A DNA stretch of 64,000 bases from Chitinophaga sp. 180180018-3 (GTDB lineage Bacteria > Bacteroidota > Bacteroidia > Chitinophagales > Chitinophagaceae), in NCBI RefSeq assembly GCF_037893185.1, contig NZ_CP140772.1, positions 2,976,001-3,040,000 on the forward strand, read 5' to 3'. Shown piece by piece: positions 7,123 through 38,004 of the stretch. Below the pieces are notes generated by a model. The model was not told the DNA's origin. It saw only the letters and a program-made list of their open reading frames with translations, and made no database searches. Both the position numbers and the translations under genes were made by a program. The first letter of the stretch is position 1. Each line of letters begins with the position of its first letter.

Positions 7123-7158
7123 AAGCAGGGTTGTAAGAGAAAACTTACAACCCTGCTT
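7123..7158 (-). terminator. Terminator of the TonB receptor gene
   Basis: Perfect 15-bp arms (7123-7137 and 7144-7158) with a 6-base loop lie immediately after the stop of the receptor gene. On the minus strand the stem is followed by TTTAACTTTTTC. Confidence 0.85.
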
Positions 7159-7164
7159 GTCGTT

Positions 7165-9336: not shown

Positions 9337-9423
9337 CCTGATGTTTAATATTTGTCTGATAGCAATGCCTTATCTGCCTGCACAAAAGGCGGGCAAATCT
9401 ATTTCTTTAATCATGATAAGTAC

Positions 9424-9726: not shown

Positions 9727-9834
9727 AGAAGCAAATATACAAACACCATCATTAACCTGCAATGTCTTTCAAAAAATCAATCAACGAATCCGGTCGAATT
9801 TATTGCCGTCATTGATTAATAAGCGGTTTCACTT

Positions 9835-11544
9835 TCAATACCATCTCTTCCGCCGATCCCGCTCCAGGGCTTTAATTTCAAATACTTTCAGGGCATTTTC
9901 CAGCTGCGTTAACTTCCCGTTGTTGCCTTGTTCCTGGTACGCTTTTCTAAGCACGCGGATTTTTTCAAAATCCTGTATTCCTTCTATCAGTTTCTCAAAG
10001 CGGATGGAACTCATCGGTCCGGGATAAACCTGGTAGGTATCTCCTGCAGGGAACTTGTGATTACGGCTGTCTGTGAGCGGATTGGCTGTCCAGCTGTTGT
10101 AAGCCCAGCGCAGGTATCCGTCCATGTGCTGAGCTGCTGTATACCAGCCCATCCAAACATGCTCCGCAGGTGGTGAAAACGTAAAGCCGTTGGGATATTT
10201 TTCTACGCAACAGGTATACCAGGTGCTGGTTTTTCCCTGCTGTGTTCTTTGCGGTAATACATCTGCCGGAAATTTATGTACAGATGCTAAACAATAGTCA
10301 TCAATATCTTTCTCAATGTCGGCGTGATATTCTCCGGCCAGGGCTATCTTCCAGTCTTTGTCGATTCCCTTCAGCAATTTAATAACGGCTTTCATGGCAT
10401 CCATGGGGCGCTCATCCATGGCGATGGTTGTTTTTGCAAACCAGCCTTTGGCTTTCAGATGGCGGGTGAAATCTTTCAGCATAGGTGTCCAGAAGGCATT
10501 GTATTCGTCGGAGCCGATCTTGCCGGTAAACACGGTATCGCGGCCGAGGCCTTCGTCGTAATATTGAAATGCCACTTTCCACGGCACCATACTGTAGCAA
10601 TTGATGCGCTGATCAATGCCTGTGCCCATGACAAAGCTGATGTATTGATCGAACAGGCTATAGTCGTACTGCCAGCTGCCGTCTTTCTTTCTGGTCCATT
10701 TGATAAGGCTGGGATAATCATCGTAGGTCTGATGCCCCCAGGGCTCATTCACAATGCCTGCGGTGATACATTTCTGGCCGGCTTTTGCCAGCATGGTATA
10801 ATACCCGCGCATCAGGTTAAAGTGAGCATCGCTCCAGAGTGGTACCTGATGTACCCGCGCCACCGCAGCCGGATGTTGCCACAGATCGAGCTGAAAAGCC
10901 CATTGGGAAGGAGGGGGCAGCACCTTATCCAGTACTTTAACGATGAGTTTTAGCTGATAAGTTTTACCGGCTTTTACAGAGATGGTGCCCGCATAGTTAC
11001 CTGCCTGCGCGTTTGCGGGAATAGTGATGCTGATCCAGAAAGGTTGCACCTGTTGTGGTTTCAGCTGGCCCTGGTGATGCTGCATGTCAATGATGTCTTC
11101 CACCAGCGACGAGTCCGGGTCGTTTTGCTGGATCTGTCCGCAGCCGTAGCTGCGATCGCCGGTTCTTACGTAGTTTACGAGCCCGATCTGGACATTTTCA
11201 GGAGGAATTACCGCCCCGCCTGTGGATTTCAGCGTACCGGCAATTGCTTCCACAGGTACGTCTTTCGTAGCCCATACACCAAGCTGGGTATGGATCTTTT
11301 CGTTCTTCCAGGCTACGAGCGTTATTGTACTCATCGGATTTTCTTCCGGAACACGATCGGGTGCATAATGCCTGTTGCTGTTCAGGAAGCCAACACCTAC
11401 GCCGTTTTTCAGCGCCTGCCACTGAGCATTTTTTTCAGCGGGCGTCATAACCGGATCTCTTTGCTGGGCCAGGCTTACATCCTGGGCAGAAGATACCGCC
11501 GTGTTGAGCAATAAGCCAACGGCCAAAATACAATGTAGGTTCAT
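9835..11544 (-). CDS. DUF4091-type glycoside hydrolase-like secreted protein
   Basis: From ATG 11544 the product begins with a clean signal peptide (MNLHCILAVGLLLNTAVSSAQ). In-frame ATGs upstream at 11661, 11655 and 11631 would add up to 39 polar residues; they cannot be excluded because a candidate promoter lies only about 20 bases before 11661. The mature protein has a beta-sandwich N-terminal part and a C-terminal TIM-barrel-like part with DUF4091 features such as EHVWMGWYTAAQ, YLRWAYNSW and SSIRFEKLIEGIQDFEKI. The family is related to glycosidases; the substrate is unknown. The gene stands alone. The C-terminal stretch ends with basic residues. Confidence 0.85.
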   Translation of the reverse strand: MNLHCILAVGLLLNTAVSSAQDVSLAQQRDPVMTPAEKNAQWQALKNGVGVGFLNSNRHYAPDRVPEENPMSTITLVAWKNEKIHTQLGVWATKDVPVEAIAGTLKSTGGAVIPPENVQIGLVNYVRTGDRSYGCGQIQQNDPDSSLVEDIIDMQHHQGQLKPQQVQPFWISITIPANAQAGNYAGTISVKAGKTYQLKLIVKVLDKVLPPPSQWAFQLDLWQHPAAVARVHQVPLWSDAHFNLMRGYYTMLAKAGQKCITAGIVNEPWGHQTYDDYPSLIKWTRKKDGSWQYDYSLFDQYISFVMGTGIDQRINCYSMVPWKVAFQYYDEGLGRDTVFTGKIGSDEYNAFWTPMLKDFTRHLKAKGWFAKTTIAMDERPMDAMKAVIKLLKGIDKDWKIALAGEYHADIEKDIDDYCLASVHKFPADVLPQRTQQGKTSTWYTCCVEKYPNGFTFSPPAEHVWMGWYTAAQHMDGYLRWAYNSWTANPLTDSRNHKFPAGDTYQVYPGPMSSIRFEKLIEGIQDFEKIRVLRKAYQEQGNNGKLTQLENALKVFEIKALERDRRKRWY

Positions 11545-11681
11545 GAAAGGAATGCGGTACTTTTTCTTTCCCTGAATGAGGGCAGTATTACCATCCAGCG
11601 TGGTAATAGCAGTTTTTTCATTGTTCTCCATAACGTTGAATATAAGGTTGATCATGGTCACAGTGCTTACTGTGTTACCGG

Positions 11682-11689
11682 CAAATATA
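11682..11689 (-). promoter_or_regulatory. -7 promoter element for the DUF4091 gene, with adjacent palindrome
   Basis: On the minus strand TATATTTG matches the Bacteroidota -7 consensus TAnnTTTG exactly. Just downstream, 11659-11674 is a palindrome (CACAGT-gctt-ACTGTG) that would lie at or just after the transcription start, a position suited to an operator or a short 5' hairpin. No clear -33 TTTG was found. Confidence 0.55.
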
Positions 11690-11724
11690 GATGATTTATG
11701 TGGTTAATGCCAGCTGAAAAGAAG

Positions 11725-11744
11725 AAGCCCCCGGAAGGGGGCTT
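11725..11744 (-). terminator. Terminator of the DUF1269 gene
   Basis: Arms 11725-11732 and 11737-11744 pair perfectly over 8 bp (AAGCCCCC/GGGGGCTT) with a 4-base loop, followed on the minus strand by a TTCTTTTC run. Confidence 0.8.
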
Positions 11745-11781
11745 GTGGTGAATACTTTATGTGCGCTGCAACAATAGCTGA

Positions 11782-12459
11782 TTAGCTTTTTATTTGCTCT
11801 TTTATTTTATGCAGCCAGTTTTTATAAGCATTTTTCTGAGCTGTAATGCTCTTCTGTGCCTGATTCTGCAGGCGTTTTAATTGTTTCTCCAGTTTGTCTA
11901 TTTCAGACTGTGCCTCCTTCTTTTTGTCATCTGCAGCCTGGTTCCATTCCGCCTTTTTAGCATCAATTTTTGCCTGTAATTCCTGTTCCTGTTTGGCGTA
12001 CAGCTTTTCTAATTCCTCCTCTACGCTGTAACGCTTAATTTCTGCAATGCCCGACAGACTGGTATTAATGGCAGCTTCCCATTCTTCGTTTACGTGCGCT
12101 ACTACTACATTTTGGCCGTTCTCCATTGTTTTTGAAATTTCATGAAGATAAGCCTGCTGAAAATCTTCATCGTCCCAATCGGCAGCAGAGCCTACCAGTG
12201 CGCCGAGAGATGTTCCAAACAGGAAACCAACCGGCCCCGCCAGCAAGCCAATGAGGCCTCCGAAAAGACTACCATACAGCGTGTTGGAAGCGTCTGCGCC
12301 TTTGCTGTCTTTAACGGAAGTGTTGCCATTGGCGTCTTTCTGTAATACAAATATTTCTGCAACATCTACATCTCCTTTGGCATTGAGGTTTTGAAGGGTG
12401 TCCACTACTTTATAAGCATTGTTCTCGTCGGTGGTAAGAAACTGGATAATCTTTTCCAT
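11782..12459 (-). CDS. DUF1269-type protein with glycine-rich membrane segment and coiled coil
   Basis: A 225-residue protein. Residues 1-70 form a small alpha/beta domain of the DUF1269 kind. Residues 80-115 (LFGGLIGLLAGPVGFLFGTS) are a Gly-zipper-like hydrophobic hairpin followed by the DWDDEDF patch typical of this family. Residues 155-225 are a long charged coiled coil rich in Glu, Lys and Gln. It is divergently oriented to the thioredoxin-like gene. The biochemical role of the family is not established; related proteins are often stress induced. The long coiled-coil tail looks like an extension of the usual domain. Confidence 0.8.
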   Translation of the reverse strand: MEKIIQFLTTDENNAYKVVDTLQNLNAKGDVDVAEIFVLQKDANGNTSVKDSKGADASNTLYGSLFGGLIGLLAGPVGFLFGTSLGALVGSAADWDDEDFQQAYLHEISKTMENGQNVVVAHVNEEWEAAINTSLSGIAEIKRYSVEEELEKLYAKQEQELQAKIDAKKAEWNQAADDKKKEAQSEIDKLEKQLKRLQNQAQKSITAQKNAYKNWLHKIKEQIKS

Positions 12460-12707
12460 AAACTAAAATGTTTAATTGATTGAAATAGTAACGAAAGGAA
12501 CCTGATTAAATATAGTTTAACTTTCCGGATAAAGCATCAGCGGCGATTGTAAAGGAATTATTATTTATCAGGTATCCATACCAGATGGATCCCGTTGTAA
12601 AACCGGTTATATAGTCAGCCTGCCATTTATCCAGCCTGCTTGATGATTTAAGCATTTATATTTATTTTTAATTTAACTATTACCAACCAACCATTAAACA
12701 TTAGCAA

Positions 12708-14000
12708 ATGAAAAGAGCACTTTCGGCCGCAAGCGGCCTGTTGCTGTATGCAACCTCCTGTTTGTCGCAGGATAGCAACCCAAAAACGAATGCCCCTTCC
12801 TTCGGCGTCGGCAGTGAAGTATCCAATTACCCAGGCGTTCAATGGATCAAGGGCGCCCCGGTTACTAAATTTGAAAAGGATAAAATTTATGTAGTGGAAT
12901 GCTGGGCTACCTGGTGCGGACCATGCGTAGGAAATATTCCTCATCTGAACGACCTGGCAAAGAAGTTTGCAGGGAAAATTGTCGTTGTTGGCCAGGATGT
13001 TTTTGAAGATGATAAGGCGGAGGTTGAAAAATTTGTGAAGGAGCAGGGCGACGGGATGAGCTACCGTGTGGCATTTGGTGGAGGCGAGGATGGCGATTTT
13101 AATAAGAAATGGCTCGAGCCGGCCGGTGTAAGAGGTATCCCGCATGCATTTGTTATCCAGGATAACAAAGTGGTTTGGACGGCGCATCCGGCTGAATTCA
13201 GTGAAGCCGCTTTCCAGATGCTGGTAGACCGGAAATTTACCATTGCAGCAGCTAAAGCAGTAAGCCCTTTAGGAGAGATTGGCCAGATTGATTCCCTGAT
13301 ACAAATGGCAAAATATGATGAAGCCGGTACCAGGATTGAAACATTCATTAAGGCAAATCCACATGCTGATATGGGCTTTTATTCGAAAATGACGCTGCTG
13401 CAAAAACAGGGTAAAAATGCGGAGGCCATAGCATTTGCAAAGGAGTTGTCTGTCAGTCATCCGAAAGTAGGTAAACCAATGTATTACGACGCACTGGCAA
13501 CGGCCAAAGATTATAATACCCTGATGGCACTCACCGGCGCCGACCTGGAGAAGAAGCCGGATGATGTAAGCACTATATTTACACGTTACCGCATTTTTGT
13601 AGAGCAGAATGATTATAAAAGCGCTGCGGCAATGATTAACAAGGCAACAACAGCTTCTGCGGATGTAAAAACCCTGTCTACCCTCGCTATGCTGAATAAG
13701 TACCTCCCTGAAGCTAAGAAAGGTACGGAGGCGGAAGCGGCCATGTTAAAAGCTGGCCGGAAAGCATTAAACCTGAAACCCGGAAACCTTCAACTGGCAA
13801 TGACAGTTGCTGAAATGCTGTGGGACAATGATAAGAACGGCGCTAAAACTGTGATAGCCAGTACTGCGGATGCCATGAAGAAAGATCCAAAACAGGCGAA
13901 GCTTGCCGGTGTTGCGGGTAATGTAAAGGAGTCACTTGATAAGGGCGTTTTCCCGGACATGAAGCAGGTACGTGAATGGTATAAGGATGCTTCAAAATAA
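12708..14000 (+). CDS. Exported thioredoxin-fold protein with alpha-helical C-terminal half
   Basis: A 430-residue protein with a signal sequence (residues 1-20; TSC at 16-18 could be a lipobox). Residues 30-180 are a TlpA/ResA-type thioredoxin fold with active site WCGPC in CWATWCGPCVGN (about 65-75) and a GIPHAFV cis-Pro loop. The remaining 240 residues are helical, TPR-like repeats. It probably acts as a periplasmic thiol-disulfide reductase or sensor. It has its own strong terminator and no obvious operon partner, and is divergent from the DUF1269 gene. Confidence 0.9.
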   Translation: MKRALSAASGLLLYATSCLSQDSNPKTNAPSFGVGSEVSNYPGVQWIKGAPVTKFEKDKIYVVECWATWCGPCVGNIPHLNDLAKKFAGKIVVVGQDVFEDDKAEVEKFVKEQGDGMSYRVAFGGGEDGDFNKKWLEPAGVRGIPHAFVIQDNKVVWTAHPAEFSEAAFQMLVDRKFTIAAAKAVSPLGEIGQIDSLIQMAKYDEAGTRIETFIKANPHADMGFYSKMTLLQKQGKNAEAIAFAKELSVSHPKVGKPMYYDALATAKDYNTLMALTGADLEKKPDDVSTIFTRYRIFVEQNDYKSAAAMINKATTASADVKTLSTLAMLNKYLPEAKKGTEAEAAMLKAGRKALNLKPGNLQLAMTVAEMLWDNDKNGAKTVIASTADAMKKDPKQAKLAGVAGNVKESLDKGVFPDMKQVREWYKDASK

Positions 14001-14015
14001 CAGCTGTTATAATGG

Positions 14016-14047
14016 AAAAAATCCCGGACCTTTACCCGGGATTTTTT
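14016..14047 (+). terminator. Terminator of the thioredoxin-like gene
   Basis: Perfect 12-bp arms (14016-14027 and 14036-14047) with an 8-base loop. The right arm ends in six T residues, a textbook intrinsic terminator. The A run in the left arm makes it usable in both directions. Confidence 0.92.
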
Positions 14048-14330
14048 CTATTGATACCCCGCTTTACAGTGATTGATTATCAGTCCGGGCAAAAGATTGC
14101 TTGCAGATGGCTGTTTTCCGGGAAGTAGCAGCACTATCCTAAAACCTTACTTACGGGCAACGATGTAAGCCCTCTTATAAAATTACTGCTCCGCGTTGAT
14201 ATCCCTTCTATTGAGGTTTGGAAATGATTCTTCCAATGAGTTGAAATATTTCATGAAGATTGCAAAAATATTCAATTAGGCAACCATTGCACATGCCTTA
14301 TTGCCTTCCAAATAAAATCTTCCTTATTTC
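14048..14330. other. Intergenic stretch before the MarR operon
   Basis: About 280 bp without a credible gene on either strand. The distal part (14230-14330) is AT-rich and leads into the promoter at 14331-14352. No repeats or RNA genes were noticed. Confidence 0.5.
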
Positions 14331-14352
14331 ATTGATATATCAATTATATTTG
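14331..14352 (+). promoter_or_regulatory. Promoter with overlapping palindrome (likely MarR autoregulatory operator)
   Basis: A perfect 14-bp palindrome ATTGATATATCAAT (14331-14344) directly abuts TATATTTG (14345-14352), an exact Bacteroidota -7 element. It lies 25 bases before the marR start. Operators of MarR regulators are typically such AT-rich palindromes that overlap their own promoter, so autorepression of the MarR-peptidase operon is likely. Confidence 0.7.
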
Positions 14353-14376
14353 CATCAATAATATAAGTTGTGAAAG

Positions 14377-14802
14377 ATGAAGTCTGAACAAACAGTGTTT
14401 TATTATATTGAAAGGGCGATAAAGTCGTACCGCCAATTCGTGCAAAGAAATATAACAGAAAAAGGCTTTGAAACCACGATAGATCAGGGGTTGATATTGA
14501 GCATCATCCAGAATAACCCCGGTATCACACAGCAGCAAATAGCAATCGCTGCGTTCAAGGACCATGCTTCTGTCACCCGTATCATCGAAAATCTGGTGAG
14601 CAAACAAATCCTGAAACGCGAGTTTCACGCGGAAGACAGAAGGCGCTTTCACCTGACCATCACTCCGTATGGATTAAAGATGCTGCAGCAAATGAAGCCG
14701 GTTGTCAATGCCTACCGGAAGAAAGCACTACAGGGTATTACGGCACAGGAAATTGAATTGGTGAAAAATATACTTCACAGAATAAGTGAAAATTGTCAGT
14801 GA
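14377..14802 (+). CDS. MarR-family transcriptional regulator
   Basis: A 141-residue winged-helix regulator. Residues 45-75 give the recognition region (TQQQIAIAAFKDHASVTRII), followed by the wing (KREFHAEDRRRFHLTITPYG), and helices for dimerisation at both ends. It is translationally coupled to the S9 peptidase gene (TGATG overlap at its stop) and preceded by a palindrome-promoter unit at 14331-14352. It probably represses the two-gene operon in response to a small ligand; the ligand cannot be predicted. Confidence 0.93.
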   Translation: MKSEQTVFYYIERAIKSYRQFVQRNITEKGFETTIDQGLILSIIQNNPGITQQQIAIAAFKDHASVTRIIENLVSKQILKREFHAEDRRRFHLTITPYGLKMLQQMKPVVNAYRKKALQGITAQEIELVKNILHRISENCQ

Positions 14803-16856
14803 TGATCAACGCCCGCTTTACGCTATCGTGCCTGCTGGTAGCTGCACAATTAGTTATTGCAGTGCCTTCAGCCGATGCTCAGTCTGCCGATACCATAACA
14901 CAGGACGATCGCTATGAAGCCTATCTCAGGGTTCATACGCTTGTCAGCGGAACCTACATCCGGCCTCATTGGCTGGTGGCCGGCGACCGCTTTTGGTTTG
15001 CCACAGGCAGGCCGGACAGCACCGTTATCTATGAGGTTGACGCTAAACGTAACACAAAAAAAGAGCTTTCTGATAAAGCCAGGCTGAATGCGATGCAGGA
15101 GAAAGCGGAGGATCCATTGTCGCTGCCGTCTCCGGATAAACAACAATCTGTTTTTGTTCAGGACAATAATCTATGGCTGCGTAATACAGGGGCCGGGGCG
15201 CCAAAGCAGCTGACAGACAACGGTATCGCAGACAACGCGTGGAGCATAGCCGATGCTGCCTGGTCGCCGGATGGTGCGCAGCTGCTTGTCCGCCAATCAG
15301 ACGACCGGAACGTATACCATCTCCCCATTATCAATTATTCAAAGCCTTTGGAAGATGTTGAATGGGACGTATATGCCAGAACAGGAGATAGCCTGGAAAT
15401 ACCTCACCTTTATGTAATTGACACCAGGTCCGGCAAACAGGTAAAGATAGCAATGGGTGGCAGTCCGCAGCAATACGTTTATCCGCTGGGGTGGACACCT
15501 GATGGGGCGGCTGTGATTTTTATGCGGATGAACCGCCAGGGAAATGATTTAACGCTGCTGACAGCGGATCCTAACACAGGTGCCAGCAGCGTCATACTGA
15601 TGGAGCAACAAAATACTTTTGTTGGCGGATTGGATTTCATCATAGACAAATGGCGGCGTCAATTCACGCTATTGAAAGATGGTAAACGTTTTATCTGGAT
15701 GTCGGAGCGCAGCGGCTGGCGCCATCTTTACCTGTATGATATGCGCGGGAAATTAATCCGCCAGCTAACGGATGGTACTTTCCCTGTTATACAGGTGGTG
15801 AAGGTAGATGAGAAAAATGGATGGATCTATTTTACGGCCAATGCGGAGACTAATCTTTATTACACTAATCTCTACCGGATAAATCTGGAAGGCAAAAACA
15901 TGCAACGGCTAACGAGTGCCAGTGGCGCGCATTACATTCAGTTCTCGCCGGGGGGCAACTATTTCCTGGATACGCATTCTACCATCAGCGAACCTCCGGT
16001 GGTGGAGCTGCGCCGCGCGAATGGGCAGCTACTGCAGGTAGTAAGAACAGCAGACACGAGCCGGCTTCGGCGCATTGGCTGGAACCCGCCGGAGAGCTTC
16101 GTCGTAAAAGCTGCTGATGGGAAAACAGATCTGTATGGGATCCTCTATAAGCCATACAACTTCGATCCAAATAAAAAATATCCCGTCATTAATGTGATCT
16201 ATGCCGGTCCTTTTATGACAATCGTGCCCAATGGATTCATGCCTAACAGCTCTTTGTCTATCCAGGCACAGGCACTGGCACAGGCCGGATACATTACCTT
16301 CCTGGTAGATGGGCGGGGTACTACTGAAAGGAGTAAAGCTTTCCAGGATGTGGTGTTTAATAATATCGGGAGGAATGAGATTCCCGACCAGGTAGCTGCT
16401 TTAAGGCAGCTGGCTGAGAAACGGCCTTATATGGACCTCACAAGAGTAGGCGTTTACGGCCATTCCTGGGGTGGATATTTTACAGAACGTGCTATGCTGA
16501 CAGCCCCCGATGTTTACCGGGTAGGTGTTGCTTCCTCGGCAGGAGAGGTCAATGAAGGTGCAGAGATCCACGAGCCCTACATTGGGCTGCCGCAGAACAA
16601 TAAGGCGGTTTATGACTATGCCGCCAATAACAAACTTGCTGCTAATCTTAAGGGCAAATTACTCCTTATTCATGGCACCAGTGATGTCAACGCGCCATTT
16701 TCTGCAACAGTGAGAATGATAGCTGCACTCATTAAGGCAGGTAAACCATACGATCTCCTGCTATTACCATTGCAAACTCATTTTTTTGAAGGAACAAGTG
16801 AAAAATATGCCAACGAAGCCATACGGCGGTATTTCGATAAAAATCTGAAGCCATAA
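14802..16856 (+). CDS. S9 family prolyl oligopeptidase (DPP4-like), exported
   Basis: From ATG 14802, which overlaps the marR stop in TGATG, the product has 684 residues with a signal peptide ending SADAQ (about residue 27). An eight-bladed DPP4-type propeller spans about 40-430, with IRQLTDGTF and LYYTNLYRI repeats. The C-terminal alpha/beta hydrolase domain contains the nucleophile elbow GHSWGGY (Ser555), Asp628 (GTSDVNAPF) and His660 (QTHFF), so the triad is complete. Family enzymes cleave after Pro or Ala near peptide N-termini in the periplasm. In-frame TTG 14793 and GTG 14799 are weaker starts. It is about the usual length for the family. Confidence 0.95.
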   Translation: MINARFTLSCLLVAAQLVIAVPSADAQSADTITQDDRYEAYLRVHTLVSGTYIRPHWLVAGDRFWFATGRPDSTVIYEVDAKRNTKKELSDKARLNAMQEKAEDPLSLPSPDKQQSVFVQDNNLWLRNTGAGAPKQLTDNGIADNAWSIADAAWSPDGAQLLVRQSDDRNVYHLPIINYSKPLEDVEWDVYARTGDSLEIPHLYVIDTRSGKQVKIAMGGSPQQYVYPLGWTPDGAAVIFMRMNRQGNDLTLLTADPNTGASSVILMEQQNTFVGGLDFIIDKWRRQFTLLKDGKRFIWMSERSGWRHLYLYDMRGKLIRQLTDGTFPVIQVVKVDEKNGWIYFTANAETNLYYTNLYRINLEGKNMQRLTSASGAHYIQFSPGGNYFLDTHSTISEPPVVELRRANGQLLQVVRTADTSRLRRIGWNPPESFVVKAADGKTDLYGILYKPYNFDPNKKYPVINVIYAGPFMTIVPNGFMPNSSLSIQAQALAQAGYITFLVDGRGTTERSKAFQDVVFNNIGRNEIPDQVAALRQLAEKRPYMDLTRVGVYGHSWGGYFTERAMLTAPDVYRVGVASSAGEVNEGAEIHEPYIGLPQNNKAVYDYAANNKLAANLKGKLLLIHGTSDVNAPFSATVRMIAALIKAGKPYDLLLLPLQTHFFEGTSEKYANEAIRRYFDKNLKP

Positions 16857-27581: not shown

Positions 27582-28361
27582 ATGGAAGTATCGGAAATTA
27601 CATACCTGGTCGTTTTTGGTACCATTGCTTTTCTCCTGTTCTTTGTTTTTATCGGATTGGTAGTTATTCGTTACTATAAAAAAAGTAAAGAGTATGTAGA
27701 GAAGACCTTTTTGCTGAAGCAGAGCTTTGAACACAATCTTCTCCAGGCCCGCCTGGAAGTACAGGAGCAAACGTTCAACACCATCAGCCAGGAAATACAC
27801 GACAACGTGGGGCAGTTACTTAGCCTGGCAAAGGTGCAGTTAAGCATCGCCGAGCAAAGTGAAACGGCCGACAAACCGTTGTTGTCTGATATAAAAAGCA
27901 ATCTTAGCAATGCGTTGAACGATTTACGTGATATTGCCAAAAGCCTCAATAGTGATCGCATCCGGCAACTGACCCTGGCACAGATCATTGAGGAAGAGTT
28001 GCAGCGGATCAGCCGCTGGGGCTCCATTCGATATCATCTGCAGGTAAGTGGTGCTGAACAGCCGCTTTCCGAACAAACAAAAACTATCCTCTTTCGTGTA
28101 GTACAGGAATGCTTTCAGAATATCCTGAAGCACGCCAATGCAACACAGATAAATACAGATCTTGATTACACCGTTCCATACCTGCACATAAAGATCACCG
28201 ACAACGGCGTAGGCTTCCTTCAGCATCAGTCGAACGAAATACGATCAGGCATTGGTCTCAATAACATCAAAACCCGGGTAGCATTAATTAACGGAACTAT
28301 TCATATCAGCAGTACTGAAGGAAAGGGCGCCGCTGTTACTTTAAATATCCCATATGAATAA
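27582..28361 (+). CDS. Sensor histidine kinase, NarL-type partner (HisKA_3)
   Basis: A 259-residue kinase with one N-terminal membrane segment (about 8-30), a short coiled coil, the phosphoacceptor box ISQEIHDNVGQLLSLAKVQL with His73, and an ATPase domain with VVQECFQNILKHA N-box and DNGVGF and GIGLNNI G boxes. It has no extracellular sensor domain, so it probably senses at the membrane or through a partner. The stop overlaps the start of the response regulator gene by 8 bases, so they are one operon. It follows the GH5/hydrolase genes by 76 bp, a possible functional link. Confidence 0.94.
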   Translation: MEVSEITYLVVFGTIAFLLFFVFIGLVVIRYYKKSKEYVEKTFLLKQSFEHNLLQARLEVQEQTFNTISQEIHDNVGQLLSLAKVQLSIAEQSETADKPLLSDIKSNLSNALNDLRDIAKSLNSDRIRQLTLAQIIEEELQRISRWGSIRYHLQVSGAEQPLSEQTKTILFRVVQECFQNILKHANATQINTDLDYTVPYLHIKITDNGVGFLQHQSNEIRSGIGLNNIKTRVALINGTIHISSTEGKGAAVTLNIPYE

Positions 28362-29010
28362 AGAAATAAAAATTGCTATTGCAGACGATCACGCTTTGTT
28401 TCGCAGAGGAATTACATCCCTTATCAATTTTTTTCCGGGATACAAAGTGCTGTTCGAAGCCGCTGATGGAAAGGATTTCATCCGGCAGCTCCGCCAGGAT
28501 TCACTGCCGGATATTGCGCTGCTCGATATCAGTATGCCCAATATGGATGGTTACGCCACCGCCCATTGGATCAATACCTATTACCCTCAGATCAACGTGC
28601 TGGCCCTGAGCACGATGGATGCGGAATCTGCTATCATTAGAATGATGAAAAACGGTGCCAAAGGTTACGTACTGAAGGATGCCGAACCAGAAGAGCTGAA
28701 GCTGGCCTTCGATGAGGTGCTTCAGCACGGATGTTTCTATAACGAGCAGATTACAAGAAAAGTCATGAAATCATTAAACGCGTTATCTTCCGAAAACAAC
28801 ATTTCCGGGTTTGTAAAGTTAACCGAAAGGGAAACCGAGTTTTTAAAATTACTTTGTACGGAGAAAACATATAACGAAATAGCTGCGGAGATGTTTGTTA
28901 GTCCTCGTACGGCGGAGGGATACCGCAATGCGCTTTGTGAGAAGTTACAACTGAAAAGCCGTACCGGCCTGGTACTTTATGCCATCAAAAATGGGTTGGT
29001 GAAGATATAG
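28354..29010 (+). CDS. LuxR/NarL-type response regulator
   Basis: A 218-residue regulator. The receiver domain has the acidic pair DD at 11-12, phosphoacceptor Asp58 (LLDISMPNMDG) and Lys in GYVLKDA. The C-terminal LuxR helix-turn-helix begins LTERETEFLKLLC and includes YNEIAAEMFVSPRTAEGYRN. It is translationally coupled to the kinase gene. Targets cannot be told from sequence. Confidence 0.95.
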   Translation: MNKEIKIAIADDHALFRRGITSLINFFPGYKVLFEAADGKDFIRQLRQDSLPDIALLDISMPNMDGYATAHWINTYYPQINVLALSTMDAESAIIRMMKNGAKGYVLKDAEPEELKLAFDEVLQHGCFYNEQITRKVMKSLNALSSENNISGFVKLTERETEFLKLLCTEKTYNEIAAEMFVSPRTAEGYRNALCEKLQLKSRTGLVLYAIKNGLVKI

Positions 29011-29042
29011 AAGGAGGGAAGACATACTTCCGCAGAACAACA

Positions 29043-29067
29043 GTGGATGGCCCGCCTCACCATCCAC
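29043..29067. terminator. Bidirectional hairpin between response regulator and pqsE-like gene
   Basis: Perfect 8-bp arms GTGGATGG (29043-29050) and CCATCCAC (29060-29067) with a 9-base loop lie between convergent genes. No long T tract. Confidence 0.5.
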
Positions 29068-29078
29068 CTTAATTAACA

Positions 29079-29960
29079 TCATGCAATATATCCCTCTGTC
29101 TTTAAGATCGAAATCATCCTGAGCATGGCCGACTTAAACATCCTCTCATTGAAAAAGCCCTTGCTGTAACCGGCATATTTTTGCGAAAAAATAGCTGCCA
29201 CTTCCTCCGCCGGATGGCTGTTTAGCATCTTACCAAAATCATCGATGTAGTGATTAGTAGAGGCAAAACTATTCGATGGCGCAGTTGTTGCAAATGTATC
29301 CGTCAGCAATCCGTGATGTCCTAACGCCAGCATAGACACCCGCAGTGCATTTACTTTCCCAACGCTTTCCATATACTGGCCCGCATGCTGGAAGATGAGC
29401 GGAAACCAGTCGTGTGGCTGCATCATGTGCCCCAACGCATCAGAGGCAAATAACCATTGCTGTTCGCTGTACAACGACAGATGGCAATCGCTGTGACCCG
29501 GGGTGGCCAGTACCCGGAAGTTCCAGCCATTGAACGACAGTTCATCTCCATCGGCCACACATTCGAAATGCTGATCAATCAGCCCGTAAAACGGATTGCC
29601 GGTTACATTGAGTGTTTCCCGGTCCGGTTGCATCCGTAATACAAAGTCCATGTATTTGTCGTACCGGAAACCCGCGATGGCAGCAGCGGATGCATATAAT
29701 TTTACCTCAGGCATATGAGGCAAAAGAACGGGAAGCAGGCCACAATGGTCGTAATGGGAATGGGTAATGAACCAATGCCGGATATCCTGCAGCCGTGGTA
29801 CTATTTCGCCAAGCTGCGACATCACAAGGTCTGCATCACGTAAGAGGCCTCCTTCAATGAGTAGCCAGCCGTCACCGGTTTTTACGAGGTAAAGCGGGTT
29901 GTCCGGCGTGCCAAGCAGAAACAATGCTGCATTTACTTTTCCTGGTTTATTAATCCACAT
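29079..29960 (-). CDS. pqsE: PqsE-like metallo-beta-lactamase-fold thioesterase
   Basis: A 293-residue MBL-fold hydrolase with the metal-binding motif THSHYDHCG (His67, His69, Asp71, His72), further ligands in GHSDCHL, FASDALG and LGHHGLL. The stretch RHWFITHSHYDHCGLLPVL closely resembles Pseudomonas PqsE (HYWLITHKHYDHCGLLPYL), and length matches (PqsE about 301 residues). PqsE hydrolyses 2-aminobenzoylacetyl-CoA. It is the last gene of a leftward operon, 20 bp after the PqsD-like gene. The Glu that follows DALG in PqsE is His here. General MBL hydrolase is the fallback call; confidence in the family is high, in substrate moderate. Confidence 0.85.
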   Translation of the reverse strand: MWINKPGKVNAALFLLGTPDNPLYLVKTGDGWLLIEGGLLRDADLVMSQLGEIVPRLQDIRHWFITHSHYDHCGLLPVLLPHMPEVKLYASAAAIAGFRYDKYMDFVLRMQPDRETLNVTGNPFYGLIDQHFECVADGDELSFNGWNFRVLATPGHSDCHLSLYSEQQWLFASDALGHMMQPHDWFPLIFQHAGQYMESVGKVNALRVSMLALGHHGLLTDTFATTAPSNSFASTNHYIDDFGKMLNSHPAEEVAAIFSQKYAGYSKGFFNERMFKSAMLRMISILKTEGYIA

Positions 29961-29980
29961 ATGCTCGTTTTTTTGGGTGA

Positions 29981-30961
29981 TCAGAATCGGTACAACATGG
30001 CGCCCCAGGTGGCCCCTGAGCCATAAGTCAACACCAGCGCCAGCGTACCAGGCGCCGGATCCTGCTGATGTATGTATTCACTGATGGTAACCGGAAGAGA
30101 GGCAGAGGCCATGTTACCGTAATGCTGAACATTGGTCACCATTTTTTCCGGAGGTACGCCCAGTTGTTCTCTAACGTTATCGAGTATACGTAGATTAGGC
30201 TGATGAGGTAGTATAATATCTACGTCGCCAGGCCCGAGGCCATTTCTTTCCAGTATCTCCAGCGCCACTTCGCAGATCCTCGAAGTAGCATCTTTGAACA
30301 TATGCTTTCCGTTCATCCGGAAATGAGCCGTTGTATCAGTGCGGGTGTAATGTGGCTGTGCAGTGCCTGGCGCCTCGGTCCATAACAGCCGGTACTGGCT
30401 GCCATCGGCTTTAATCAGCAAATCAATCACGCCGCCGGGGTGATCGTCGTCCCGGCTTAATACGATGGCGCCGGCGCCATCTCCCAGTAAAATCGACAAA
30501 TTCCTCCCTTCATCTGAAGTATCCATTCTTTTAGACAACACCTCGCCACATGCAATCAGCACATGTTTGCTCCGTCCGGCCAGCAACCTGGAATAGGCGA
30601 TTTCCACGCCGTATAGCAGGCCGGAACATTGCGCCCTGATATCAAATACCGGTATGTGGCCGAGGCCCAGCGCCGGCTGGATAAAACAGGCTTCAGACGG
30701 ATCGTGGTGATCAGGACTGAGGGTATTGATGATCATCATGTCGATATCCCGGGGTGTAAGGCCCGCCTTTGCTATGGCAGCCAGACAGGCTGGTATCAGC
30801 AGGCTGCTGACCCCTTTATCGGGCGTTACATGCCTGCGGGTTAATACGCCCGTCCGGGTTTCAATGAATTCTTCCGTAGTGTTCATCCTGCTTACAATAG
30901 CAGCATTGCCGATGGTTTGCCCGGGCAGGGCATGACCGGTTCCTTTTATTACTATCGCCAT
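29981..30961 (-). CDS. pqsD: PqsD-like ketoacyl-ACP synthase III (aroyl-CoA condensing)
   Basis: A 326-residue thiolase-fold enzyme with the full KAS III triad: Cys112 in AQCSGLLYG, His253 in LPHQPNLRI and Asn283 in YGNMASAS. It carries the distinctive PqsD stretches NTLSPDHHDPS, DIRAQCSGLLYG, GEVLSKRMD, GRNLSILLGDGAGA and TYGSGATWGA, shared nearly word for word with the Pseudomonas enzyme as I remember it. PqsD condenses anthraniloyl-CoA with malonyl-CoA to 2-aminobenzoylacetyl-CoA. Only 2 bp separate it from the ligase gene upstream. FabH-type acyl-ACP synthases are the alternative, but this pattern is much closer to PqsD. Confidence 0.9.
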   Translation of the reverse strand: MAIVIKGTGHALPGQTIGNAAIVSRMNTTEEFIETRTGVLTRRHVTPDKGVSSLLIPACLAAIAKAGLTPRDIDMMIINTLSPDHHDPSEACFIQPALGLGHIPVFDIRAQCSGLLYGVEIAYSRLLAGRSKHVLIACGEVLSKRMDTSDEGRNLSILLGDGAGAIVLSRDDDHPGGVIDLLIKADGSQYRLLWTEAPGTAQPHYTRTDTTAHFRMNGKHMFKDATSRICEVALEILERNGLGPGDVDIILPHQPNLRILDNVREQLGVPPEKMVTNVQHYGNMASASLPVTISEYIHQQDPAPGTLALVLTYGSGATWGAMLYRF

Positions 30962-30963
30962 GG

Positions 30964-32487
30964 TTAATTCTTTTTATGCTGAAAATATTGTTGATACTGC
31001 GATCTGAGCACTGTCCGGGATATCTTCCCGTTAGCATTCCGGGGAAGCTCGGGTAAATAGGCGATATCTCTCGGTCGGCAATGGCTTTCGACATTGCTCT
31101 TAATATAGCTGGTAACAGCGCTCTTCGTATCTTCCTTCCCAACAACAAGTAACAACATAGCGATAAGCGATTCCTCATCAGGAAGGTCCAGCAGCATGCA
31201 TTCTTCAATACCTGATACTGAACTGAGTAACCGGGATTCAAAGGCACTCGGATTTACCCACCGGCCATTGGATTTAAACAATTCATCCTTGCGGCCATGA
31301 TAAACATAGGTACCGTTGTCGGCCTTGCTGAACAGATCGCCGGTATGATACCAGCCATCCCGGAATTTGGCATTGTTCCTTACGGGATCTTCCCAGTATC
31401 CGGCCAGCGGATAAGGCGTTTTTACACACAGTTCTCCCGCAACCTGTTTTTCCTTCGGCTCGCTATGGCTATAGTTGAGTTGCAGATCATAGCCTTCCAC
31501 TACATTCCCTGTATTTCCGGCGCCATGGCTGCCGGGCTTATTGGTAAGGAATACGTGGCCTACCTCCGTACAACCGATACCATCCAGTATCGGATGGCGG
31601 GTATATGCTTTCCACTTTTCATACAAAGCAGCCGGTAACGGAGAACCGGCAGAAAAGAATAGTCGCACTTCCTTCAGTGCTGCTGTCAGTTCCGGAGTAG
31701 GCGAATGCAATAAAGCCGCGTACATTTTAGGCACGCCAAAAAAGACGCTGGGCTTATAATGTATGATGTTGGCTGCAACACTGGCGGGGTCTGGCCATTG
31801 GCCGTCGATTAAAACGCTGGCGCCCGTCAGTAACGGAAAGAAAAAGCTGTTGCCGAGGCCGTATCCGAAAAACATTTTTGGAACGGAATAGATCCGGTCG
31901 TGTTGATGGATGCCAAGCGTGTCGGTGGCAAACAGTTTTGTGTTGATGAGCATTGTATCCTGGCTATGCTGTACAGCCTTCGGTCTTCCGGAGGTGCCGG
32001 ATGTATATTGCCAGAATGCAATACTGTTGGGTTTCTTCCGATAAAAAAAAGTGGGCCTGGAAGAAAGAAAAGCGGTATCATTCAACTGGCTTTCCCGGAA
32101 GATTTTATCCGGCGCAATAAATATCGCCTGCCGAAATACCGTCTTGAGCCGTTCCTGTTCTGCATCGTCTATTATAATGGCCGCTGCCCGGCTGTCGTCC
32201 AGTATATAAGCCAGCGTTTCCGGCTCTGTTTTCGGATTAAGCGGCACCGGTATGGCGCCGATCTTTAACAAGGCCAGGAATGAGTAAATGAAGGTGGGAC
32301 TGTCTTTTAATAGCAACAACACTCTCTGTTCAGGAAGAATGCCGGCAGTATGGAATCCGCCCGCAAAACGTCCTGTTTGTTCACAAATAAAATCGCCCTT
32401 CAGGAATTGATTGTTGAATAGGATCTGGTGCTCATTGTCGTGGTCACTAACAGACATGAGAATTCTCTCTGCAAGATTATATTGCAT
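30964..32487 (-). CDS. pqsA: PqsA-like aromatic acid-CoA ligase (anthranilate/benzoate type)
   Basis: A 507-residue adenylate-forming enzyme: P-loop YTSGTSGRPKA, DGIGCTEVGHVF (A5), GWYHTGDLF (A7) and RKDELFKSNGRW (A8), with the C-terminal catalytic Lys in NANGKISR. Stretches YSVPKMFFGYGLGNSFFFP, FFGVPKMYAALL and IGCTEVGHVFLTNKPG follow Pseudomonas PqsA (517 residues) as remembered, and also benzoate-CoA ligases. It should activate anthranilate or a similar aryl acid to the CoA ester consumed by the PqsD-like enzyme. The substrate-pocket specificity was not determined, so benzoate or another aryl acid stays possible. Confidence 0.88.
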   Translation of the reverse strand: MQYNLAERILMSVSDHDNEHQILFNNQFLKGDFICEQTGRFAGGFHTAGILPEQRVLLLLKDSPTFIYSFLALLKIGAIPVPLNPKTEPETLAYILDDSRAAAIIIDDAEQERLKTVFRQAIFIAPDKIFRESQLNDTAFLSSRPTFFYRKKPNSIAFWQYTSGTSGRPKAVQHSQDTMLINTKLFATDTLGIHQHDRIYSVPKMFFGYGLGNSFFFPLLTGASVLIDGQWPDPASVAANIIHYKPSVFFGVPKMYAALLHSPTPELTAALKEVRLFFSAGSPLPAALYEKWKAYTRHPILDGIGCTEVGHVFLTNKPGSHGAGNTGNVVEGYDLQLNYSHSEPKEKQVAGELCVKTPYPLAGYWEDPVRNNAKFRDGWYHTGDLFSKADNGTYVYHGRKDELFKSNGRWVNPSAFESRLLSSVSGIEECMLLDLPDEESLIAMLLLVVGKEDTKSAVTSYIKSNVESHCRPRDIAYLPELPRNANGKISRTVLRSQYQQYFQHKKN

Positions 32488-32531
32488 AGCGGGTTACTTG
32501 ATGGTTTAAAATAGGATAGTACTAAGGTTGC

Positions 32532-32969
32532 TTACAGCCGTTGCCAGGTAAGCTGAAAAGTCATGGGTTTATCGTACACTACCAGGGGAGGCGTTTTCAA
32601 CACCAGTTTGTCGTCTTGTAAGGTGGCGTAACGGATAAACCTGATTCCGATAAAATTGGGAAAAAGGCTGCCTTCTACCACATGGGAGATCTCACCAGGC
32701 TGTTCCTCGGAATAACGCCCATAGTAGGCGTTATATCCGAGGAATGCCGCAGAAGCTTCTTCCGGCGTACAGACGCCCATTGCATCCGACTTGAATCTGG
32801 GTCTTTCAGGATTCATGATCTGAACATTCATGTGACCTTTCTCGTCGTACATTAGAATACCGGAAGGTGTGGATCCAAAGAAATGAAGTGATTGTCCGTT
32901 GGCGTCCCAGTCGACGCAGTTAGTCAGGGCCCAGGAGCCGACTATAAGGTTTCCAATAGTGGGTTGCAT
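32532..32969 (-). CDS. Lipocalin-like domain protein heading the pqs-like operon
   Basis: A 145-residue single-domain protein without signal peptide. The fold is beta-rich with the opening GSWALTNC, then GILMYDEKGHMNVQIMN and VVEGSLFPNFIGIRFIRYA, typical of the lipocalin-5-like domain often found near secondary-metabolite genes. It is 44 bp upstream of the ligase gene in the same direction. It may bind the aromatic product or shape its cyclisation; no direct evidence. Confidence 0.75.
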   Translation of the reverse strand: MQPTIGNLIVGSWALTNCVDWDANGQSLHFFGSTPSGILMYDEKGHMNVQIMNPERPRFKSDAMGVCTPEEASAAFLGYNAYYGRYSEEQPGEISHVVEGSLFPNFIGIRFIRYATLQDDKLVLKTPPLVVYDKPMTFQLTWQRL

Positions 32970-33027: not shown

Positions 33028-33254
33028 TTATTGTGGAATTATTAACTGGTATAAAAGGAACTGAGAAGAATGAACAGAATGAACAGCATGTTTACGGAGG
33101 CGGCTATACGTTCTCTGCTTTATGTCCGTTACCGAACAATCTCTGTACTCATCCGGACACTTAATCAATACACATCATGATTAAGTCTCTGTACATCATA
33201 TATCTGTAACATGGCATGATAATACCTGCCTCTCCCGCAATACTTCTTCACACT

Positions 33255-34565
33255 ATGAACCTCCTGATCAAAACTATATTCCGCCAGCTATGGCGCCAAC
33301 GGCTCTTCACTTTCCTCAACATCATAGGAATTGCCATCAGCATCAGCGCCTGTTGGGTGATCTACCGCATCGTCAGTTACGAATATAGCTTCGATAGTCA
33401 ATTGCCCGATCGCACTAATACCTACCGCCTGGTAACAGGAATGATGTTTGAACAAACAGAAAGTTACAACGGCGGCGCTTCTGCTCCGCTATATTAGTTC
33501 CTGCGTGAAGAAGTACCCGGCCTCAAACGGGTGGTACCGGTTTTCTCCCAATGGATCAACGTCGTGGAAACTACGGATCAACGGCAGGAACCTGTTGTTA
33601 AAGGTAACGTAAAGGGTGTGGTGGCTACTGATTCTACTTATTTTGCAATGGTGCCTTACGCCTGGTTAGCCGGCAGTCCCGCTACTGCGCTGAATGCTCC
33701 GGAAAATGTAGTGCTTACCGAAAGCCGCGCAAAAAGTTATTTTGGTACAACCGCTCCGGAGGCGGTTTTAGGGAAAATAATTACTTATAACAAAGAAAAG
33801 AAACGGACGGTAACGGGTATCGTAAAAGATCTGGGCTATCCTACAGAATTTACGGGACAGGAATTTTTCAGGCTTCCTCCTGCAACTTATTCGCTGGGCC
33901 AGTGGACCAGCACCGATGGTGCTAACCGGGTGTATCTCCAGCTGGGGCCGGGTACGGATACGGCAAAGGTGCTGGCAATGGTAACGAAGGTGGCCGGCGA
34001 AAAATGGGAGGAGAATTTGCAGGATAGCAAGCTTCCCCGCAGCATCAAACGCTGGTTCAAACTGATACCGCTGACTGAATCGCATTTTTCAACTTACATC
34101 CCTGAGTGGGAGGTACGTAAAGCCAGCAAACCGGTAATGCACGGACTCATCGGCCTGGGTCTGCTGCTGATCATTGCGGCCAGCATCAATTTTGTAAACC
34201 TCGCCACCACCATCGCTATCATTATAAGCTGCTTGGGCCTCTTCGGCCTTGCGGTGCTCATCGCATTCCAGCGTACAAAGGAAATCGGTATACGGAAAGT
34301 GCTGGGCGCTACTGTTACCGGCATCATACAGATGCTGATGTTGGATTTTGTGAAGCTCGTGCTTATTGCGTTGGTGATCGCCGCTCCCATTGCATGGTGG
34401 GGCATGTCGAAATGGCTGCAGAACTTTGTTTACCGGATCTCCATTGAATGGTGGATGTTTGCGCTGTCTGGTGCGGTAGTGGTGCTCATTGCCATATTTA
34501 CGGTGAGCTTCCAGGCGGTAAGGGCGGCCCTGGCCAACCCGGTGAAGTCGCTGCGATCCATGTAA
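33255..34565 (+). pseudogene. MacB-like FtsX permease pseudogene with in-frame stop and internal deletion
   Basis: From ATG 33255 the frame opens with a MacB_PCD N-terminus (LLIKTIFRQLWRQRLFTFLNIIGIA), stops at TAG 33495-33497 and continues in the same frame with LREEVPGLKRVVPVFSQWI. Further on, INFVNLATT joins directly to IAIIISCLGLFGLAV; in intact relatives of about 780 residues these motifs belong to the first and second FtsX domains, roughly 300 residues apart. So the gene has both a nonsense codon and a deletion of a whole middle part. No second half, ATPase or MFP genes are next to it. Non-functional unless readthrough occurs. Confidence 0.88.
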
Positions 34566-35832: not shown

Positions 35833-36996
35833 TTATCTTGCAGCCCTGAACATCCGCCAGAGCTTTATCTTCAATGCCAGCCAGCCTATGAATGCATAAA
35901 CGAGTAACAGAATACCCAAATGTCGTATATACGGAAACGTTAGTCCCACCGCGCCTTTCTGAATCAACAGAATTTTAAATGCCTGTAAAAACGGCGTCAG
36001 TGGAATAATGTTGGCCATAAACTGAACGAAAGACGGCATAGCGCTGAGCGGCCAGGTAAAGCCGCTGATGATAAACGCCGGCGAAGCAATCACCATCAGT
36101 ATTTGCGTGGCTTTTAACGCATCCGGTATAAGTATGCTCACAAATACACCGAGGAAGGAGGCGGAGCCTACAAAAAATGCAGTAAGCCATATAAAGTTCA
36201 GAATACCTTCCGGCAATGGCACCCGGAAAAGAATATGCATCAGATAATAAACTGCAACAATCAGGATAGAAAAAAGCCAGATGGGAATCACTTTTATCAG
36301 CATAATAGGGAAGGCCCATCTGCGCATGCCACGGTACTCTTCCACGAAAGAACCCCGCTGGAACTCCGCTGCAAAGCTAACGGCCATCGCCAGCAGGATC
36401 ACCTGTTGCAGTACTACCGCCAGCATGGCCGGCCACATAAAAATCAGGTAGTTACTGGTAGTATTGAAGAGCGTGATATAGTTGGTTTTGAAAGGCTCAT
36501 ACTGGGTGGCTGCCCTCACTGCCGGCATCCCCATTTTCTGTAATCCCTTGATGGATACACCCGCGGAAAATGTACCAATGGTCAGCTGCAATGCCTTGGA
36601 AGCGAAGTTGGCCGTTAATACGTTTCCGGTGTTAACATATACATTCACTTCAGGATATTTCTTCTGCAATATATCCGCTTCAAAACGGGAAGGGAGCATC
36701 ACTACAGCAGCTGCTTCTTTCCTGATCACTTCACTGTTCACGTTGTCGGGCTCCCGCAGATATTTCAGCACCTTAATACTTTTATTATCTCCCAACATCT
36801 CCACCAACTGGTTAGATAACGGGGTATTATCTTTATCGATTACGATTACAGGTATATTCTCCACCTTCCCGCTTTTGTACACAAAACCCAGCAGTGTGGC
36901 ATAAAAGACCGGCGCCAGGAAAAAGACGGTGCGCAGGGTGGAATTGCCAATGAACAGCTTGAACTCACGTTTCAACAATCGGATAAATTCTTTCAT
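35833..36996 (-). CDS. ABC-2 type permease of an export system
   Basis: A 387-residue membrane protein with one N-terminal segment (about 22-40), a periplasmic domain up to about residue 175, then five C-terminal segments, and the classic ABC-2 stretch FIISGFTWPLSAMPSFVQF. This is the YhhJ/YbhR half-permease type. It is preceded by HlyD-like and TolC-like genes at 6 and 3 bp spacing. The ATPase, and usually a second permease, are not encoded next to it, so the pump must borrow an ATPase from elsewhere, if active. Confidence 0.9.
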   Translation of the reverse strand: MKEFIRLLKREFKLFIGNSTLRTVFFLAPVFYATLLGFVYKSGKVENIPVIVIDKDNTPLSNQLVEMLGDNKSIKVLKYLREPDNVNSEVIRKEAAAVVMLPSRFEADILQKKYPEVNVYVNTGNVLTANFASKALQLTIGTFSAGVSIKGLQKMGMPAVRAATQYEPFKTNYITLFNTTSNYLIFMWPAMLAVVLQQVILLAMAVSFAAEFQRGSFVEEYRGMRRWAFPIMLIKVIPIWLFSILIVAVYYLMHILFRVPLPEGILNFIWLTAFFVGSASFLGVFVSILIPDALKATQILMVIASPAFIISGFTWPLSAMPSFVQFMANIIPLTPFLQAFKILLIQKGAVGLTFPYIRHLGILLLVYAFIGWLALKIKLWRMFRAAR

Positions 36997-37002
36997 GCCT
37001 GA

Positions 37003-37959
37003 TTATTTCAGTAAAACAGTTGCATTTACCAGTATATCTTTCACCTTACTCATATCTTTAGGTTGCACCTTGATCTCATATATTGCATCCTGTATCTGGT
37101 AGTCAGGATAAGCGGTGGTGATATCCGCATAACGGGTCAGCTGCCTGATATACGCGACGGTTCCATCCACGTCTTCTTTATTGTACGATACCTGCATTTT
37201 TATATCCTGCCCTGTTTTGAAGGGCGCAATTTTGCTTTCCGGTATCGTAAAACGGAAGTACGTGCTGCCGGGTATATATCCGTTGAACAGCGCAAAGCCG
37301 GCCGTAGCCAGCTCTCCGGGATTCAGGCTGATCGTTTCTATTTCCATATCGTTGGTAGCAATGATATACCGCTCCGAATAAGCAACGTTCGCTTCCTGTA
37401 ATGCGCCCTTTGCCTGGGATGCCTGTCCGGCGGCCATTTCCACTTTTTCAATACGGGTACCTCTTTTTACATCGTCCAGTTCTGCTACTACGGCATCATA
37501 CTGGGCTTTTGCTCCCTGGAATTTTGCATAGATCTCATCGTAAGACTGAGGCGACATCAGGCTGTCGTTGAACATATTGGTTGCCCGTTCATACGATTTT
37601 CTCGCAAATTCATATTGCTCTTTCAATCCTTTATACTTGGCCTGCAGTTGTTTCAGCTGATCGGCTGTAGCGCCATTGCGCGCCATCTGCTCCTGTGCGG
37701 TGGCGGCATTAACGGCCCCCTGCGCCTGTGCAATTTTTGCCGAAACCTCCGGTACATCCAGCAAAGCCAGGGTGTCGCCTTTCTTCACTGTTTGTCCTTC
37801 TGCTACATAAATTTTCAGTATCCTGCCGGTAACTTTAGGCGCAAAAGAAATGACGTCCTTTTTAGCTTTTCCTTCCACCCGGTCAGCATCCCGCTTTTTC
37901 GAAGCACAGCCTGCCAGTGCCAGTAAACCGATCAATAATATGCTGCTGGTTATTTTCAT
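37003..37959 (-). CDS. HlyD-family periplasmic adaptor (lipoprotein)
   Basis: From ATG 37959 the product has 318 residues with a lipobox LALAGCAS (Cys17). An in-frame ATG at 38001 is closer to the tolC stop (3 bp) and cannot be excluded. It has a biotinyl-lipoyl-like half (KIYVAEGQTVKKGDTLALLD), a coiled-coil hairpin (about 75-175) and barrel strands ending in ILVNATVLLK. It links the permease to the outer-membrane channel. Same operon as its neighbours. Confidence 0.92.
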   Translation of the reverse strand: MKITSSILLIGLLALAGCASKKRDADRVEGKAKKDVISFAPKVTGRILKIYVAEGQTVKKGDTLALLDVPEVSAKIAQAQGAVNAATAQEQMARNGATADQLKQLQAKYKGLKEQYEFARKSYERATNMFNDSLMSPQSYDEIYAKFQGAKAQYDAVVAELDDVKRGTRIEKVEMAAGQASQAKGALQEANVAYSERYIIATNDMEIETISLNPGELATAGFALFNGYIPGSTYFRFTIPESKIAPFKTGQDIKMQVSYNKEDVDGTVAYIRQLTRYADITTAYPDYQIQDAIYEIKVQPKDMSKVKDILVNATVLLK

Positions 37960-38004
37960 TTTATCGTAGTTAATTTTAGTAATCGTTGTAGCTGTCTGCA
38001 TAAG

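Follow-up and report, generated by a model that had tools for sequence, protein, structure and literature searches.

An operon that would direct a natural anthranilate pathway lacking PqsBC is encoded in a 64,000-nucleotide stretch of the Chitinophaga sp. 180180018-3 genome (NZ_CP140772.1, positions 2,976,001 to 3,040,000; hereafter the window). It consists of four genes on the minus strand: a lipocalin gene (32532..32969, 145 aa), which is the first gene of the operon, followed by genes for a PqsA-like putative anthranilate-coenzyme A (CoA) ligase (30964..32487, 507 aa), a PqsD-like beta-ketoacyl-acyl carrier protein (ACP) synthase III (KAS III; 29981..30961, 326 aa) and a PqsE-like putative thioesterase of the metallo-beta-lactamase (MBL) fold (29079..29960, 293 aa). 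All four reading frames are open and lie head to tail, with gaps of 44 bp (lipocalin-PqsA), 2 bp (PqsA-PqsD) and 20 bp (PqsD-PqsE). An initial annotation of the window had described a leftward pqsA/D/E-like run led by a lipocalin-like gene; its frames, its gaps of 2 and 20 bp and the PqsA, PqsD and PqsE motifs that it quoted are all present in the DNA and its translations. Its content matches the opening half of the Pseudomonas quinolone signal pathway with a lipocalin gene added. The operon probably converts anthranilate to 2-aminobenzoylacetyl-CoA (2-ABA-CoA) and then to 2,4-dihydroxyquinoline (DHQ), 2-aminobenzoylacetate (2-ABA) and/or 2-aminoacetophenone (2-AA).

The KAS III is most similar to PqsD of Pseudomonas aeruginosa (3h76; 374.8 bits, vs 207 bits for the next different molecule, a FabH) and is 54% identical to PqsD of P. 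aeruginosa PA7 (BLASTP). A KAS III tree was built from 59 rows (31 PqsD, 14 labelled FabH and 14 other KAS III), omitting 10 of the 33 PqsD-type loci, mostly same-genus relatives, and including only some of the available FabH and other KAS III sequences. All 31 PqsD rows, that of the window included, are separated from the rest by a branch with a Shimodaira-Hasegawa-like approximate likelihood ratio (SH-aLRT) support of 100. The Cys-His-Asn catalytic triad (C112, H253 and N283) is invariant in a 22-row alignment. The protein scores below the cut-off of the fabH model TIGR00747 (273.4 vs 292.1), and the housekeeping FabH is a separate gene of the same genome (G000:C1:299733-300689). An identity as FabH was rejected because the protein lies outside FabH in the tree and the genome has its own FabH elsewhere. 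A further set of KAS III proteins, 31-41% identical to PqsD and with the same peptide patterns, occurs in isolates and metagenome-assembled genomes (MAGs) of Gemmatimonadota, Bacteroidota, Proteobacteria and others (L034-L045, L047-L049, L051-L055 and L057-L059); the 14 of these included in the tree are outside the PqsD clade.

The best solved match of the ligase is the anthranilate-CoA ligase of P. aeruginosa (270 bits over 352 residues). Because the benzoate-CoA ligase 2v7b scores nearly the same (261 bits over 462 residues), the identity of this protein must be decided by its tree position and residues. In a tree that takes in 22 of the 31 ligase loci, it falls within a clade of 32 rows that contains P. 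aeruginosa PqsA (SH-aLRT 100) and from which the benzoate-CoA ligases 2v7b and 4rlf are excluded, as are two Burkholderia A-ligases and one Polyangiaceae ligase. Among 28 positions around the active-site motifs, 10 set P. aeruginosa PqsA apart from both benzoate-CoA ligases, and the window ligase carries the PqsA residue at eight of these 10 (Q162, T164, M207, G210, S280, V306, G307 and V309). Two residues described as required for PqsA activity in a passage of PMC9430567, G279 and D299, are present in the window ligase and likewise in the benzoate ligases. The score to the curated benzoate-CoA ligase model TIGR02262 is below the cut-off (317.7 vs 375.25). Assignment to the ordinary benzoate-CoA ligases was rejected, as the protein is placed outside 2v7b and 4rlf.

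The product of the fourth gene has P. aeruginosa PqsE as its best match (123 bits), and the next molecule reaches 37 bits. All seven metal ligands of PqsE (the HxHxDH motif with H159, D178 and H221) are present. When used as a query against its own genome, this protein matches itself at 687 bits and the second-best match is only 25 bits; in the other pqs-bearing genomes, the top match is the gene beside pqsD in eight of eight cases. R170 and R171, which are named as essential for interaction with RhlR in PMC12077149, are replaced by Glu and Gln. According to the same paper, interaction with a LuxR-type receptor is also missing in the Burkholderia PqsE orthologs, and so these two residues do not define the thioesterase. 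The matches of the three proteins are well beyond chance level and, to the extent that sequence can tell, they are supported as a PqsA-like putative anthranilate-CoA ligase, a PqsD-like predicted anthraniloyl-CoA/malonyl-CoA condensing enzyme and a PqsE-like putative 2-ABA-CoA thioesterase. The identities given in the initial annotation are upheld by the position of the first two inside Pqs clades and by the catalytic and metal-binding residues; the opposite placement, KAS III with FabH and ligase with benzoate-CoA ligases, was looked for and was not seen in either tree (SH-aLRT 100 in both).

Several points weigh against this reading. PqsA is only 39% and PqsE 29% identical to its P. aeruginosa PA7 counterpart (BLASTP), and the ligase is barely separated from benzoate-CoA ligase by its PDB scores. 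It has Leu at M213, as the benzoate ligases do, and a Cys at A303 that it shares with neither PqsA nor the benzoate ligases; the 28 positions compared were chosen from motifs rather than from the full structural pocket. The equivalent of Glu182 in the window PqsE is His, the sole case among 14 proteins compared (Glu in the other 13). The KAS III also scores above the cut-off of a broad NCBIfam model, NF006829 (beta-ketoacyl-ACP synthase 3; 291.9 vs 249), four rows labelled FabH are placed among the other KAS III rows of the tree, and both trees are quick searches with SH-aLRT support only and flagged long branches. To our knowledge, no member of the Bacteroidota branch has been characterised. 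These genes might also be read as an ordinary FabH, an unrelated acyl-CoA ligase and a metallo-beta-lactamase that share only a resemblance with Pqs proteins. The NCBI names of close relatives ("beta-ketoacyl-ACP synthase 3", "AMP-binding protein" and "MBL fold metallo-hydrolase") are of this kind, as are the NF006829 match and the 273 bits, under the cut-off, to TIGR00747; however, the trees, the cross-genome searches and the separate FabH gene make this explanation extremely unlikely.

The same enzyme chemistry could also act on another aromatic acid, such as benzoate or salicylate, to give benzoylacetate/acetophenone or 4-hydroxycoumarin. PqsA belongs to the benzoate-CoA ligase superfamily and scores 261 bits to 2v7b, the Leu at M213 is that of the benzoate ligases, and a Polyangiaceae locus has a ligase above the benzoate-CoA-ligase cut-off in the place of PqsA. 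As the window ligase is PqsA-like at eight of the 10 positions that tell the two types apart and clusters with P. aeruginosa PqsA, another substrate is unlikely.

No PqsC was found in the four Chitinophaga genomes that carry the operon. In all four, the best matches to a PqsC query (89.5-93.7 bits) are at the level of FabH and PqsD, whereas PqsC was found in five of five positive-control genomes (294-507 bits). The best matches in Microbulbifer halophilus (77.8 bits) and Candidatus Parabeggiatoa (87.5 bits) are also at the FabH/PqsD level. A PqsD query revealed just three KAS III-type sites in the window's own genome; there was no separate pqsB query. The known chain-adding enzyme therefore appears to be absent as far as tested, that is, by a PqsC query that did not separately cover PqsB. 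The lack of pqsC that the initial annotation had noted in the window hence extends to the whole genome. Since PqsC was not found, no alkyl chain is expected by the known PqsBC route, and DHQ, 2-ABA and/or 2-AA are the expected products. An alkylated or otherwise elaborated quinolone could still arise if the operon fed 2-ABA to an unlinked enzyme that acts by a non-PqsBC route. With PqsE, the operon has an enzyme that releases 2-ABA in free form, and a much larger cluster surrounds the same genes in related Bacteroidota; against this, no PqsC-like match exceeds the FabH level in the four Chitinophaga genomes and no additional gene is common to the window and the other three loci. Such a route is considered quite improbable.

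The preferred pathway, without PqsBC, would proceed as follows. PqsA would activate anthranilate to anthraniloyl-CoA, and PqsD would condense this with malonyl-CoA (or malonyl-ACP) to form 2-ABA-CoA. PqsE would hydrolyse the thioester to 2-ABA. The product would be DHQ (by spontaneous cyclisation), 2-ABA and/or 2-AA (by decarboxylation), and the lipocalin probably binds an unstable intermediate or product and may steer or protect that compound. We infer this substrate, these products and this lipocalin role from what is observed of the operon: its gene content and order, the kinship and residues of its proteins and the lack of a PqsC match. The scheme follows the published one, in which, according to excerpts of PMC4807248 and PMC7731028, PqsA forms anthraniloyl-CoA and PqsD forms unstable 2-ABA-CoA; this cyclises to DHQ unless it is hydrolysed by PqsE, and 2-ABA can lose CO2 to become 2-AA. 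In gene content the operon equals P. aeruginosa mutants in pqsB or pqsC; such mutants retain A, D and E and are described in an excerpt of PMC4715436 as DHQ-only producers; the same excerpt reports that DHQ activates PqsR in P. aeruginosa. The Chitinophaga strain thus probably makes a small quinolone or aminoacetophenone and not the Pseudomonas signal. The PqsC-less form is a natural counterpart of these laboratory mutants, and it makes testable whether DHQ or 2-AA can be a real pqs end product as opposed to a shunt. The initial annotation had proposed an aroyl-acetate signal or antimicrobial. An aroyl-acetate product is still the best reading; a function as signal or antimicrobial is without direct support, and the two-component gene pair next to the operon in the window is not beside it in the other three loci (20 kb each).

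The lipocalin-led PqsADE trait is rare. This PqsD occurs in four of 79 Chitinophaga genomes, the window's own included, and no further copy was found at E-values up to 1e-90 in 294 genomes drawn from the family or 395 from the phylum. The same four genes are found in the same order in the three other Chitinophaga, one of which is recorded as Chitinophaga varians, and the reading frames are open in all four loci. As the flanks differ among these loci, the shared unit is the four genes; in the three other loci (20 kb each), no further open frame matches any frame of the window (E-values up to 1e-5). This suggests that the four-gene unit moves as a block. Its GC content of 49.5% is above that of every same-length stretch sampled in the window (mean 45.9%, standard deviation 1.5, steps of 200), which is in line with acquisition but does not prove it. 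PqsA is 59-60% identical across the Chitinophaga loci and the lipocalin is about equally conserved (57-59%). Alternatively, the operon could be what decay has left of a complete pqsABCDE cluster and could now be without function: it is rare in the genus (4/79), larger clusters exist in other Bacteroidota, one PqsE residue is odd and an apparently degraded permease gene adjoins it. However, frames and order are intact in all four loci, the catalytic residues are present in the window and the lipocalin is conserved about as well as PqsA. Decay is thus very unlikely.

The first gene of the operon, called lipocalin-like in the initial annotation, does encode a protein with the conserved domain PF13924 (Lipocalin_5; 88.6 bits vs a gathering cut-off of 25). 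No obvious signal peptide is visible by eye, and an AlphaFold model of the protein (mean predicted local distance difference test score 75.7; three sequences) is a lipocalin-like barrel. Counterparts occupy the same place in the three other Chitinophaga loci. In the gammaproteobacterium M. halophilus (L024), a 30% identical PF13924 gene lies directly before pqsA and pqsD, and PqsC was again not found in the genome. The M. halophilus locus differs from that of the window in that no PqsE was found in its 17 kb and in that its A and D genes group with Cellvibrio on a gammaproteobacterial branch. Because the Chitinophaga and M. halophilus A and D genes are on different branches, the pairing with a lipocalin arose or was passed on separately; this second lipocalin-pqsA-pqsD locus, also without PqsC, indicates that the lipocalin is probably functional. 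Among 33 PqsD-type loci, a lipocalin accompanies two of the four without PqsC (the other two being those of Parabeggiatoa and Polyangiaceae) and none of the 29 with PqsC. This PqsD occurs in three of 48 Microbulbifer genomes, and one of these, HZ11, has the PqsC form.

A role of the lipocalin in binding, protecting or cyclising a pathway compound is plausible, and the protein may be a new pathway component. A bolder, tentative possibility is that the operon represents a distinct type of pathway, in which the lipocalin-like protein replaces PqsBC and captures 2-ABA-CoA or 2-ABA, serving as a dedicated cyclase or carrier. In Bacteroidota and at least one gammaproteobacterium, the intended end product would then be a quinolone that bears no alkyl chain, such as DHQ, with a function as signal or antimicrobial. 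The pairing would have arisen or spread on at least two occasions, each of them in genomes with no detectable PqsC.

The operon shares with P. aeruginosa pqsABCDE the relative order of the PqsA, PqsD and PqsE homologues, the catalytic triad, the metal ligands and mostly PqsA-like ligase residues. It differs from that operon in the lack of a PqsC match in the genome, the Glu/Gln substitutions at R170/R171 of PqsE, the extra lipocalin gene and the host phylum. The Burkholderia hmq/hhq ABCDEFG operon also has PqsD and PqsE homologues, but it includes B and C, and the two Burkholderia A-ligases in the tree are outside the clade of the window ligase and P. aeruginosa PqsA. The nearest named relatives of A and D outside Chitinophaga are in Chryseobacterium and Flavobacterium. 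The search of other Bacteroidota that the initial annotation had proposed found related gene orders: in nine larger clusters of Chryseobacterium, Flavobacterium, Hymenobacter, Arcicella and Bizionia, D and E are adjacent as in the window. Unlike the window, all nine cluster PqsA, PqsC, PqsD and PqsE together; PqsB was detected in eight of the nine (weakly in L005), and no lipocalin was detected in any of them.

The L005 cluster (Chryseobacterium phosphatilyticum, 1670-16778) encodes, by Pfam, pqsA-B-C, an ACP, a flavin adenine dinucleotide (FAD) oxidoreductase, an AurF-like N-oxygenase and pqsD-E, and further a FAD monooxygenase, two ketosynthase-type proteins, a FabA-like dehydratase, a thioesterase and a TrpE-like protein. 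Clusters of this type may make N-oxidised alkylquinolones. L010 and L013 resemble L005 by eye, with a short-chain dehydrogenase in addition; L006-L009, L011 and L012 have the pqs genes and the C-D gap in common with it.

Alkylquinolones are described in an excerpt of PMC7731028 as primarily products of Pseudomonas and Burkholderia. A 2025 mBio paper states that PqsE orthologs outside P. aeruginosa are restricted to Burkholderia and that other hits are not in biosynthetic operons (PMC12077149). The four Chitinophaga loci and the nine larger Bacteroidota loci contradict that statement, and together they place the pathway, with PqsE beside PqsD, in another phylum. In literature searches that did not extend to most subscription journals, none of the papers listed describes either form in Bacteroidota in its title or opening abstract text. 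What is new is a PqsADE operon that is led by a lipocalin gene and has no PqsC, in a phylum to which PMC12077149 does not assign PqsE.

Two other loci resemble parts of these systems. A Polyangiaceae MAG (L029, 2512-14644) has a similar-looking large cluster with no PqsC match, in which the ligase in the place of PqsA scores 536 bits to TIGR02262; this cluster may start from another aromatic acid. In Candidatus Parabeggiatoa (L050, 5697-8890), pqsA-pqsD are preceded by a 159-codon open frame, and B, C, E and a lipocalin were not detected.

The source genome is a single contig of 8.13 Mb. Just 3' of the pqsE stop codon is a terminator-like hairpin with a 10-pair stem (29042..29068, minus strand), found by a consensus scan only, which gave nine terminator-like sites in the region vs 4.6 expected from shuffles. 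A histidine kinase and LuxR-type response regulator pair (27582-29010, plus strand) converges on pqsE and is unmatched in the other three Chitinophaga loci (20 kb each). On the other side of the operon, the lipocalin start lies about 250 bp away from an opposite-strand open frame. The adjoining frame (33216-34565, plus strand) is of the FtsX/MacB permease type and is split by an in-frame stop; permeases of this type are usually longer, and the frame is probably a degraded gene. An ABC-2 permease and an HlyD-type gene (35833-38001, minus strand), likely part of an exporter operon, are not adjacent to the pqs genes. Elsewhere in the genome, a stretch of approximately 100 kb (G000:C1, about 2604000-2702000) contains many long open frames that weakly match the benzoate-ligase model and is probably a large nonribosomal peptide region.

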